NCBI GenBank assembly: GCA_029945375.1 | Contig: CM057065.1 | Location: 1,798,001 to 1,862,000, forward strand | Source of the DNA: Agaricus subrufescens | Lineage: Eukaryota; Basidiomycota; Agaricomycetes; Agaricales; Agaricaceae | Direction of reading: 5' to 3' | DNA length: 64,000 bases | Notes under the pieces: generated by a model | Database searches by the model: none | Seen by the model: only the letters and a program-made list of their open reading frames with translations | What the model was told of the DNA's origin: nothing | Translations under genes and position numbers: made by a program | Part shown: positions 13,692 to 18,259 of the stretch, piece by piece | Position numbering within the stretch: the stretch's first letter is position 1 | How the letters are laid out: each line of letters begins with the position of its first letter

Positions 13692-13713
13692 TAGGGTGCG
13701 GGGTAAAAGTCGG
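13692..13713 (+). repeat. Left terminal inverted repeat (22 bp)
   Basis: The sequence starts TAGGGTGCGGGGTAAAAGTC and is the exact reverse complement of 18238-18259. The TAGGG start is common at hAT ends. Confidence 0.95.
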
Positions 13714-13730
13714 CCGCGTGTAAAAAAGTA

Positions 13731-13790
13731 GGTAACTTACTACCCCCCAAATTGGGCCTCGGTAACAAAAGTAAATTACGAGTAAATTAC
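13731..13790. repeat. Left subterminal GTAAATTAC motifs
   Basis: Two copies of the near-palindrome GTAAATTAC at 13771-13779 and 13782-13790, plus a variant GTAACTTAC at about 13732-13740, lie inside the left end. The same 9-mer recurs near the right end. hAT transposases bind short repeated subterminal motifs, so these are likely binding sites. Confidence 0.65.
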
Positions 13791-13828
13791 AGAGGTCATA
13801 TGACCCAAAAAGGTCACGTGCTCGCCAC

Positions 13829-16800
13829 TTACAACCACGGTTGCAACGCAAACTCGCCCCCGTCCTCCTCGTCTACAGCCAAATTTTCTACTGGCATGTC
13901 TTGTTCTGCGACCTTCGAAAATGTGACTGGGGTGTCAGCGAGCATATCTGCCAGCTCTGGTGCCTCTAGATTGGTTTCATCATCACCCTCAACAGGCAAG
14001 TCTGATCTCGAAGGTGGCAATGTGCTCACAGCCTTACCCGGTCTTTTCTCAACAGTTTCATCATCTGACTCATCGTAATTTGTATCAGCAACTCGTGGAT
14101 GGGCTACTCCACCCTCTCCTACCTCCCGTATTGCCCGTACTATGTCATAAAACTTGGTAGGTGTCTGTCTGGGCTTTTCACGGTGATTCTAGTACCAGGT
14201 CAGTGTTTACAAAGCACGATAGTCAGCTGAGACTTACCCGATGTCTTTCAGAGTCCTGTACATGATAGTTTCGGATGCGAGCAATAGCTATAACTGATTT
14301 GACACTCTGTCGATTTCGGAGTGAAGTGTTTAACATGGTGATCACCGACATGGTACGTTCGTCTGCGATAGAATGAGGAGTGGCTGACAGAACCTTGATA
14401 GCTAATACCTAAAAACTATTTAGTACATTGATTGGAGACTTTTCTGTTCAAAAACCTACAGCTAAAATGCCACCGTTGATGGTACCTTCATACGCTTTCC
14501 ACCACTCGAGTGGTAGCTGTCCGGGAAGAACAGGGGCGTTAAATGGGTAAGCCTTTTGCGCATATGCTGCAATTTGTGACTGATAAGCTCTCGAAAATGC
14601 GCCTGCCTTTCCTTTCCACTGAGCCAAAAACATATCTTCTCCCGATTCTAATTCATCTTTTAGGAGAATGAGACCATATTGTGCTATTTGTTGGAACGTT
14701 TTTGGACTCGCAATTCCGGGAGGTACTTGGCCTGAGTTAGTGTCGGTGGTTTTTCGAATTTTGATGTTGAAATCAAGAGGATTTGGTTCACATAGGATTG
14801 AAGATCGTCCATATACTAATTTTTATGGTAAGCGACCACTGCCCTTATAACTACAAGAAGTTCTCACCAGGATTCAAGTAAAACGCTGTCAGGTGTACAT
14901 TTGTAGGACCATATATAAAGAAATCACGCCACCGAGATTGTACGATACCACGAATTTGACTGCAAATTTTGGAGGGCAAACGACATGAACTCAATGCTTC
15001 TTTAAGCCGTCTCAACAATGCGAGCCAATATAGATAGACATCTCCTGGATTTGCTGACGTTGATTCAAGGCACAGAATTGCTCGAGCGAATGGGTCTCCA
15101 ATTGCGATGAACCTTGTGAGATTTATCTCATATTCCAATGTATCATGAGTGTTACTCGTGTAACACTGGTTCAAGTCCTGGTATAAGTCAATAATAGTTA
15201 TTTGTTTTCGAAGTGATAACTTACCTTTCCTAGATCTATCATCTTATTAGATACTAGTTCACGGATGGCACTAAGACAGCGCTGGATTGAGATAGCTGAC
15301 CACACGAGTGTCGCGAATCTTGTCTTGCCAACACTTTCAAGTCCTGGGCCAAGATCATGTTCCTGCCGAAGTTTGCGAAGAAGACCATTTGCATATCCTG
15401 AGTGCTTGAAATGAGTTACAGTACGTCGTATCACTGATATGGTCTCGGCAAAATGTTCAAGTGTTGCAATATCTTTCCAAGTGTTGTTTAGATGATGAAC
15501 CGGATCAGGAAGATTGAGAATATGGGGATGATTGATGCAAATGAGCTCGCGTGCTGTACGAGTATTCCCAGTATTATCTGAGGCCACAGCCACTATCCTT
15601 TTCTTTCCGATAGTTTTGATAGCCTATATCTGTGAGATTGTGATATAGGAACAAAAAAGGTGACATACCTGTAAAACGAAGTCGGCAATCCAACTTCCGG
15701 TATGTGACACCCCTGTTCCATCGATCCCCTCCAGTAATATAACCTTTCCAGCTGCGGTCGTAGCATGAAGAGTATAGACTGACTCGCCACTCCGTAACGT
15801 TCCGCCATCAAAGGAGAGACTGATATGAGCCGCATTTTGCAACTCCTTGATCTGTAGCTTCTTGACATGCTCTGCCTCCGCAAAAATATGGTAATCCATC
15901 AATGTGGAAGACGATGCAGGTTTATAGCTTGGAAGGAGGGTCTCGAAGATTTGCTTCCAGTACCTGTTGTCGGCAACTCGAAGTGCCAGCCTCGCGTCAC
16001 AAAATAGTAAGGTAATGATAAAGTCAAGTTTGTTATGCAATTGACGACGTCCACCAGTTCCGAAAAATGTGTCCAAGTGAGGAATAGAATCGGAGGATGC
16101 TGTAGTAGACGATAAAGGGACTATGGATCCAGAGCTGGTTGTTGACAACAAAGCTTTTGTAGCGTCATCATTGACACGAGCTCCGGGTGCCCGTTTTGCA
16201 TTTAAGGCTGAGGCAGCCTGACGAAGGTCTGAGGGTATGCGTAAACATGACTGGCAATGTGCTAGAACACGAGATATTGTCCGAGGAGAAAAGGTTTTCT
16301 CGCAGTGATGACCAATACATCTGTACTTTTTCTTGATATCACCTGGCTGAGTGATATCGACAGTAAAGGTATCAAGGGTTTCTAATTTTGGACGTCCCCA
16401 TGAGCTTGAACTCTTGATCGATTTACTAGCATCTTCATCAGACCCTGATTCGGTATCACTTGCAGGAGAGCTTTGTGTTTGTTCTTCAGACATAATCCGT
16501 TTCTTCATCCAAAATTAACATGTGATACAGGAAATTGCACAGTCACTCACTCGTTTGTGCTCAATAGTAGATTGAACACGAAAAATTGGAGCCAAACATA
16601 CACCTTGGTCGTTCACAGCATCTAATCTTCTTTTTTTCGGTTTGGTAGTACTACTCCGTGGGCCCAATAGCTTCAATTTGGTTTTAGGCAAAACAGGGAC
16701 ATCCGAATCATGAAGTAAAAGCGGGTCAATAGGTATTGACTCTACTTTGGATTCTGAAAGCTCGGAGTGTGATCGGGTCTATTACAGTAATATGAGTCTA

Positions 16801-18045
16801 GATATGAAAGGCCCTAATATTACTTACGAGTTCATGCTGGTGAGTGATGAGAGCCATGAGAACCCCGAGACGAGCAATGTCACCGGCAGCTGGTGTTCCT
16901 CCTGCTAATAGCTCGTCACCCAGTAGATGATGTGCTAAAGCATTATATGCATAAATTCCACAACTCCAGGTATCGTTCATCAGATTTTGATGGGGAGAGT
17001 GAAGAGTATCATTGGAAAGTACAGTCAGAGATTCTAGGTGTTGACCAAGATACCATTCAAGAGCTTCAGTCAATTCGTGATCAGGATGGCCTCCAGCAGA
17101 GTCGCCATATAGAAGCTTTTCTGCATCAAGATCGATAACAATAGGAACCCAGTGGTTTCCTTTACTATGGAAAATCCCTCCTACTTTGCCTTTTCTTTCA
17201 AGGCTAGAGCCGAAAATTTGAAGGTATCCATTTTCGGATGGATCATAACTTGGTTTCGCTATATCAGCATCAGCGTGATAAGCTTGAATGATTCCTCTGG
17301 TATGAAGAGTATCCAAGATCCATATATTGCTTTTTGGCGAGCCCGGTGATTGCTTTTTTAGTTTGTCCTCCAACATATATAGCATCAGATCAATATGATC
17401 ATCAGATAGCCATTGACGTGAGAGAAAGGGGATGAGGGATGACTTGCTGAACTGAACCCTAGTCTGTTGCCGAGTCAGTCGACCTGTAAGGAGATGCCCA
17501 CTCCAGGTAATTGTAGACAAAGAGCCAATTGTCGACTGAAGAAGGGATTGTGATAGATTAACCTCGCCAAGCCAGTTAACAGCTTTAAACCAGTTTTGGT
17601 GCACTGGTATATATTGTTTGAGTAATTTGCTCCAGTAAGTAATGACCCAAAGAGGAAAAGATTCCTTGGGAAAGTCATCACTATCGATGGTGAAAGATTC
17701 GGCTCCATTAAGCCACTCCTGTGTGACTTCGGAGACGAGTTGGTCAACAACACTTGGCGCGGGAACAGGGATTTGTTGGATTTGGGGTATGTCCAAAGAA
17801 GGAAATGCTTCAGTAAAGTTTGAACGACACACTTGATGATCATCTCCAATAAGTGGAGGGAACTCGAAGGCCAGAAAACCCATGATCGATGTGGGTAATG
17901 CTGGAAAGAGACTAGAGACGTTTGGTGGCTCGAGATGCCGCTTAACACGAAATTGAATTGGGTTTGGGAGGTCCTTGAATTGATGTCCAGATTTGCGCCA
18001 TTTCAGGTCTTCAGGGTCGTTGACTTCCATGGTTGCAACGGGCAA
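13829..18045 (-). CDS. Ulp1-like C48 peptidase fused to hAT transposase
   Basis: Eight exons (18045-16828, 16778-16551, 16502-15669, 15623-15225, 15177-14868, 14815-14460, 14408-14238, 14188-13829) encode 1291 residues. Residues about 290-375 look like a Ulp1/SENP (C48) cysteine peptidase: NHWVPIVIDL (His298), LLYGDSAGG (Asp315), Gln353 and WSCGIYAYNAL (Cys362). Residues about 483-1291 are the transposase: a BED-type finger (YRCIGHHCEKTF with a following HCQSC), a DUF659-like block (SLSFDGGTLRSGE; VASDNTGNTRTA), HLTAFYLNPVYGRS, and the dimerisation region SATPHSIADERTMSVI. The first-Asp, second-Asp and Glu catalytic positions are plausibly Asp of SFDGG, Asp of ASDN and Glu of DERT. Exon 2 to 3 is joined by a 48-nt intron (GTGAGT...AAG). 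If it is not spliced, the peptidase part ends at TAA and the next ATG follows 6 nt later. No promoter fits between the two, which argues for one gene. The start could also be Met6. Confidence 0.85.
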
Positions 18046-18189
18046 TGAGCATCAGCGCTGTGCACTGAGTAAGCAAATGTCGTGCTCACTGATCACTTAT
18101 GCTCATGACGTGCATGCCACCACACATAGCCCCTATGATACTTTTTTACATATTTTACATGGCTGTATAGGGACCGATGTAAAAAACTG

Positions 18190-18221
18190 GTAATTTACTG
18201 TAAATTACTAATGTAAATTAC
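18190..18221. repeat. Right subterminal GTAAATTAC motifs
   Basis: GTAATTTAC (18190-18198, the reverse complement form), GTAAATTAC (18200-18208) and GTAAATTAC (18213-18221) lie close to the right end of the transposon and mirror the left-end cluster. Confidence 0.65.
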
Positions 18222-18237
18222 ATAATGTAAAAAAGTA

Positions 18238-18259
18238 CCGACTTTTACCCCGCACCCTA
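18238..18259 (-). repeat. Right terminal inverted repeat (22 bp)
   Basis: Exact reverse complement of the left 22-bp repeat, ending CCGCACCCTA at the element border. Confidence 0.95.

Follow-up and report, generated by a model that had tools for sequence, protein, structure and literature searches.

The element, its ends and its copies

We analysed a 64,000-nucleotide stretch of Agaricus subrufescens DNA (assembly GCA_029945375.1, contig CM057065.1, positions 1,798,001 to 1,862,000 of the forward strand; hereafter the window), which carries a 4568-bp hAT transposable element at positions 13692-18259 with both ends complete. An earlier note on this DNA had read the element as an intact hAT whose one gene fuses a C48 (Ulp1-type) peptidase to the transposase, and this reading was borne out. 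Protein profiles and predicted folds agree with it, as do identical mobile copies, public homologues and divergent relatives within the genome, and our confidence in the anatomy and the fusion is high. The perfect 22-bp inverted repeats and perfect 8-bp duplication of that note were recovered in full, the terminal inverted repeats (TIRs) being complementary at 22/22 positions and the two copies of the target-site duplication (TSD) matching at 8/8. The ends are made up as follows:

13684-13691: left copy of the TSD, 8 bp, CCGCGATC, identical to 18260-18267
13692-13713, plus strand: left TIR, 22 bp, starting TAGGGTGCGGGG
13771-13790: subterminal repeats, two of the five GTAATTTAC/GTAAATTAC copies, candidate transposase-binding sites
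18190-18221: subterminal repeats, the other three GTAATTTAC/GTAAATTAC copies, candidate transposase-binding sites
18238-18259, minus strand: right TIR, 22 bp
18260-18267: right copy of the TSD, 8 bp, CCGCGATC

Copies were counted over the 44.65-Mb genome that contains the window. Four copies of the full 4568-bp element, 100% identical, were present, on contigs 1, 4, 9 and 13 (contig 9 being that of the window); each copy was flanked by its own, different, perfect 8-bp duplication, and the 300-bp flanks had no 14-mer in common in any of the six pairs. Three internal-deletion derivatives of 1746 bp each (C5:124614-126359, C5:1310242-1311987 and C8:1930916-1932661), mutually identical and each with its own 8-bp duplication, formed a Ds-like non-autonomous set, and a base-by-base comparison of one derivative with the full element gave 1 difference over the derivative's 775- and 973-bp arms. 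Perfect 8-bp TSDs were found at 7/7 copies of the element family, four full and three deleted. Given identical full and deleted copies with separate duplications, the element therefore moved recently. The derivatives were presumably mobilised in trans, because the catalytic parts of both enzymes are missing from them.

A genome-wide search for the 22-bp end, allowing up to three mismatches, gave 17 sites, 14 of which were the ends of the seven copies and 3 lone degenerate ends. These lone ends, with 1, 2 and 3 mismatches (C10:382510-382531, C9:51692-51713 and C4:1656811-1656832, respectively), may be what remains of older families or of related ones. The five copies of the GTAATTTAC/GTAAATTAC motif all lay within 100 bp of the ends and nowhere else in the element, compared with a mean of 0.067 and a maximum of 2 in 1000 base shuffles.

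One predicted gene for a peptidase and a transposase

A single minus-strand gene fills the element in our predicted splice model, with the ATG at 18030, 8 exons and a stop ending at 13829. The eight exons in one frame described earlier held, but the protein is 1286 amino acids long rather than 1291. The seven introns are 45-52 nt long, with the donors GTAAGT (three), GTGAGT, GTATGT, GTGAGA and GTAGGT (one each) and the acceptors TAG (five), CAG (one) and AAG (one, in intron 2). The model requires all seven splices, because each intron left unspliced leads to a stop or a frameshift. With intron 6 beginning at 14455 or 14458 the frame was lost, and 14459-14409 was adopted. The features of the gene, all on the minus strand, are:

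16828-18030: exon 1, residues 1-401, covering the N-terminal helical region and the whole C48 peptidase
16846-17460: C48/Ulp1-fold catalytic domain, about residues 191-395
17152-17154, 17101-17103, 16987-16989 and 16960-16962: catalytic codons for H293, D310, Q348 and C357, respectively
16779-16827: intron 1, 49 nt
16551-16778: exon 2, linker with basic clusters and an APIF motif
16503-16550: intron 2, 48 nt, GTGAGT...AAG, the predicted splice that carries the fusion here
15669-16502: exon 3, encoding a BED-like finger (CCHC) and the beginning of the RNase H-like domain
16245-16319: BED-like zinc-finger residues C539, C544, H559 and C563
15432-15854: DUF659 region, residues 694-819, with intron 3 within it and with D709 and D771
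15225-15623: exon 4
14868-15177: exon 5
14460-14815: exon 6
14295-14516: hAT C-terminal block, residues 1092-1148, with intron 6 within it
14238-14408: exon 7, containing E1127 (14358-14360)
13829-14188: exon 8, acidic tail and stop codon

The predicted structure and structure alignments gave a Ulp-type cysteine protease fold over about residues 157-401, at 12-19% identity to Ulp/SENP/NEDP1, and Pfam Peptidase_C48 matched residues 206-370 with 23.0 bits against a cut-off of 20.7. A phmmer search of exon 1 against the PDB returned no match below E 0.4, and a family profile performed better. H293, D310, Q348 and C357 agree with the His-Asp-Gln-Cys set proposed earlier; a peptidase is indeed present where residues 290-375 had been assigned to one, but its fold extends well beyond them on both sides. 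We consider it probable that this domain is an active enzyme specific for ubiquitin-like proteins (Ubls).

In the other half, Pfam DUF659 matched residues 694-819 with 47.7 bits (E 1.7e-12, cut-off 34.7), an RNase H-like DDE core of hAT type was present, and a transposase fold was predicted on a homologue. A profile built from the family recovered the C-terminal block and matched the Hermes transposase at E 3.9e-4, with E1127, the catalytic Glu of this block, aligned to Hermes position 572. Thus, among the BED, DUF659-like and hAT dimerisation blocks claimed earlier, the zinc-finger residues and DUF659 were found as described, while the dimerisation block fell short in Pfam and was seen with the family profile.

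Homologues among mushrooms

At least 13 public homologues (P0001-P0013) were obtained from two protein searches, the first covering 7992 candidates; among the 7990 candidates of a third, alignment-based search P0009 was recovered and nothing new. Alignment A1 holds the query and 10 other rows, including P0011. The C48 tetrad and the transposase lay within one predicted protein in 11/13 homologues (nine counted in A1, with P0012 and P0013 judged by eye), which come from Infundibulicybe, Cyclocybe, Coprinopsis, Psilocybe, Ephemerocybe, Mycena (three species), Leucocoprinus, Schizophyllum and Grifola, genera that we take to be all Agaricomycetes; the nearest homologues thereby put the host fungus in this class too. 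Because these 11 carry both parts with the H-D-Q-C set, the fusion is, as far as predicted proteins tell, not peculiar to one gene model. In P0006 (Agrocybe) the catalytic half is missing from the gene model. Pfam C48 scored above its cut-off in 8/13. The deposited names of several homologues read 'Ubiquitin-like protease family profile', so the architecture is already deposited in databases, albeit with no paper on it found in the literature searched.

The tetrad was complete in 10/10 C48-bearing rows of A1 and, by eye, in P0012 and P0013. Basic clusters in the linker were present in 11/11 rows, and the exon-2 motif, as [AT]PIF, was found in 8/10 non-query rows, including P0011 and excluding P0009 and P0010, as well as in P0013 and not in P0012. 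Over 10 rows, pairwise distances in the C48 half and in the transposase half were correlated (r 0.79), with 1/5000 permutations as high. Many A1 homologues share the acidic C-terminal tail (about residues 1240-1286), in which an L-x-E-[IL]-L-A-D-like motif recurs and which ends in W-[VL].

A peptidase in such a chain might serve maturation, the polyprotein cutting itself as the CE-clan proteases of some viruses do and so freeing the transposase. This is made less likely by the linker, since a GG occurs there in only 1/10 C48-bearing rows, and we regard self-cleavage as improbable.

Divergent relatives in the same genome

Eight relatives in the same genome (L048-L055) retain pieces of both C48 and the transposase, arranged and oriented as in the element, at about 23-43% identity per tblastn piece; in L054 the BED part alone remains of the transposase, and in L055 BED is missing. 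The search for this domain order inside TAGGG-type ends, suggested earlier, succeeded in 5/8 of them, where both parts lie between TAGGG-starting ends that match perfectly over 12 bp and are flanked by perfect 8-bp duplications; the ends of L050, L051 and L054 were looked for and not found. Gene models can in general join neighbours, and the fusion could then be an artefact of annotation or of chance, a hAT having inserted beside a host Ulp gene. This is refuted by the presence of both parts within identical mobile copies with separate duplications and within the perfect ends of the five divergent relatives, and we give it next to no weight.

All eight relatives have a donor after the last C48 helix at a site matching intron 1 of the query (by eye, within about one codon; GTGAGT in seven, GTGTGT in one). 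C48 is followed in L050, L053 and L054 by an intron (50-52 nt) and then, in phase, by an exon that is open for 197-415 codons and includes a G-[RCQ]-P motif before BED, so the way from C48 to BED requires neither a further intron nor a gene boundary. Among [CT]AG acceptors lying 35-130 nt from the donor in L048, L049 and L051, none led into an in-phase exon longer than 44 codons; the best exon ran for 79 codons to a stop in L052 and for 121 codons in L055, where the BED region is missing. Homologous elements with the two reading frames always in separate genes had been named earlier as evidence that would speak against a fusion; this was not the case, with single predicted proteins in most of the public homologues and a join by one intron in three of the eight relatives.

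The ratio of nonsynonymous to synonymous substitution rates (dN/dS) was 0.34 (L048/L050) and 0.26 (L053/L055) for C48 and 0.22 (L048/L050) for the transposase, as calculated for pairs above 60% nucleotide identity (7/28 C48 pairs and 2/15 transposase pairs), dS being saturated in more distant ones. From these comparisons we read the association of C48 and transposase as old, under selection and decaying in dead copies.

Three further observations concern the relatives. Immediately after the catalytic Cys, 8/8 of them have Ser, Ala or Leu, and the query and most homologues have Gly. L048 has about 1.4 kb between adjacent transposase pieces (locus 3793-5229), possibly a nested insertion. Another locus, L056 (4440-4877), has neither C48 nor transposase and matches just query residues 41-174 of the N-terminal region.

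Points against the reading and the alternatives they raise

Several results weigh against one gene for one active peptidase-transposase. The fusion rests here on a predicted intron 2 whose AAG acceptor is unlike the other six (TAG or CAG), and the homologues are automated gene models, which may fuse neighbours wrongly. P0011 (Exidia) is a relative without C48, and trees of the C48 and the transposase halves, each built on 10 rows without P0011, agree on 2/7 splits only. Pfam C48 was sub-threshold in P0005 and P0008 and unlisted in P0001, though the tetrad aligns in these, and it was also unlisted in P0006 and P0011; DUF659 was above cut-off in just 4/13 homologues. Dimer_Tnp_hAT reached only 13.5 bits on residues 1092-1148 of the query (cut-off 21.4), was sub-threshold in 4/13 homologues and went unlisted, at E up to 1, in the remaining nine. 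As for catalysis, no result singles out SUMO over NEDD8 or ubiquitin as the putative substrate, 5/8 relatives have a stop within the C48 stretch (L050 and L054 among them), and the tetrad, kept in 5/8, has lost its His in L051 and its Asp in L052 and L054.

The unusual acceptor also favours an alternative in which the locus makes two proteins from a bicistronic or alternatively spliced message: intron 2 would be retained, translation of C48 would terminate at the stop codon 16515-16517, and that of the transposase would begin at Met481 (16491-16493). The unspliced frame indeed stops within intron 2, an ATG follows 21 nt later, and polycistronic messages occur in mushrooms. However, Met481 is found in 0/10 other A1 rows, the exon after intron 1 in L050, L053 and L054 is stop-free through the linker to G-[RCQ]-P in phase with C48, and the exon-2 motif accompanies the transposase in P0011. 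We therefore consider separate proteins quite unlikely.

The lost His and Asp residues in 3/8 relatives, together with the missing Gly after the catalytic Cys in all eight, are what would be expected if C48 were a passenger, or a Ubl-binding module that tethers the transposase to SUMO-rich sites (nuclear pores, repair foci), with catalysis dispensable. In contrast, the tetrad is intact in every C48-bearing A1 row and in P0012 and P0013, dN/dS is well below 1, and the three relatives that lost residues also have stops, that of L051 in the transposase part. A dispensable peptidase is thus unlikely in our view, if less so than separate proteins. For the window element itself, a decayed passenger is ruled out by the intact tetrad and the identical copies.

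Proposed role of the fused peptidase

Taking the whole together, we lean towards an autonomous, recently active hAT that makes one peptidase-transposase protein with a cis-acting peptidase. hAT transposases move by cut-and-paste through a DDE site and leave 8-bp duplications behind. In order from the N-terminus, the chain would carry a cysteine peptidase of the Ulp1/SENP type, then a basic linker, a BED-like finger and finally a DDE transposase of the Hermes type. Finger and basic linker would take it to the nucleus and to the subterminal GTAATTTAC repeats and ends, the transposase would cut the element out and insert it with 8-bp duplications, and the tethered peptidase may free the transposase, or silencing and repair factors nearby, of SUMO or of a similar modifier ending in Gly-Gly. 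Removal of the modifier would keep the element and its enzyme active.

The design shared among predicted mushroom proteins suggests that the element may have its own means of removing SUMO-like tags. That the peptidase acts in cis against silencing, or in self-protection, is a tentative proposal. We put forward with still more reserve that the transposase may be a sequence-targeted deSUMOylase, guided by the BED finger and the subterminal repeats to the element's own ends, where it would remove SUMO from silencing or repair proteins and from itself, a cis-acting anti-silencing enzyme kept across mushrooms. The element is suited to asking, through one catalytic-site change, whether deSUMOylation aids transposon movement or escape from silencing.

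Other features nearby

The window also holds a U2 spliceosomal RNA gene (24455-24643) and a tRNA gene (49187-49281). At C9:1127517-1127774 lies a hAT candidate distinct from this element, which Dimer_Tnp_hAT matches strongly (58.5 bits).

Comparison with known systems

Short TIRs of the T/CAGGG type are typical of hAT. With this superfamily (Hermes, Ac and fungal DUF659-type elements) the element has in common the 8-bp duplication, short TAGGG-type ends, the DUF659/RNase H fold, the Hermes-like C-terminal block and deletion derivatives. With Ulp1, SENP and NEDP1 (MEROPS C48) it shares the tetrad and the fold, but here the peptidase is part of a transposase, at 12-19% identity and with a putative substrate. 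Some Kyakuja-Dileera-Zisupton (KDZ) elements have Ulp1-like domains; at E up to 1 in Pfam, which includes a KDZ model, the element protein matched no family of that name and no CACTA-type Tnp2/Transposase_21, its transposase matching DUF659 and Hermes instead. Excerpts of PMC12730594 mention 8-bp duplications for fungal KDZ elements and describe the capture of TET/JBP genes by many kinds of fungal transposon, including hAT7.

MarorhAT-10 of Marasmius oreades has DUF659 and a hAT dimerisation region, and its movement was observed (excerpts of PMC9674265); a fused N-terminal C48 is found only in the element described here, the words 'protease' and 'peptidase' occurring 0 times in the main text of that paper. 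In the KIU group of plant MULEs, a Ulp1 domain is joined to a transposon-encoded protein, hypomethylation of relatives is induced and the role of Ulp1 is termed unknown (excerpts of PMC13317346). There Ulp1 lies in an accessory gene, not in a transposase, and no hAT is involved, whereas here it lies in the transposase; by analogy, the KIU group may be the nearest functional parallel that we found. Plant CACTA-ULP elements (Cactavine; rice) have Tnp2 and ULP1 in one rice protein, with ULP described as transduplicated (excerpts of PMC2528002); transposase and ULP1 are joined as here, but in the CACTA superfamily and in plants. The oomycete elements CryptonF and CryptonS carry a C48 peptidase, in CryptonS as an additional protein (excerpts of PMC3212892), likewise on a mobile element, but one of the tyrosine recombinase type. 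In the VANC paper PMC5735166, 'ulp' and 'SUMO' occur 0 times.

No fungal hAT-C48/Ulp1 fusion appeared in the titles and abstract openings of the best matches from the open-licence PMC literature, a body that leaves aside Repbase and in which a description elsewhere would not appear. Ulp1/C48 on transposons is already known from plant MULE and CACTA elements and from oomycete Cryptons, as far as the excerpts of those papers go, and the fungal hAT fusion appears new within the literature covered. Ulp1-like domains occur on several unrelated transposon types; here one forms part of the transposase itself, in a small element that has evidently just moved.

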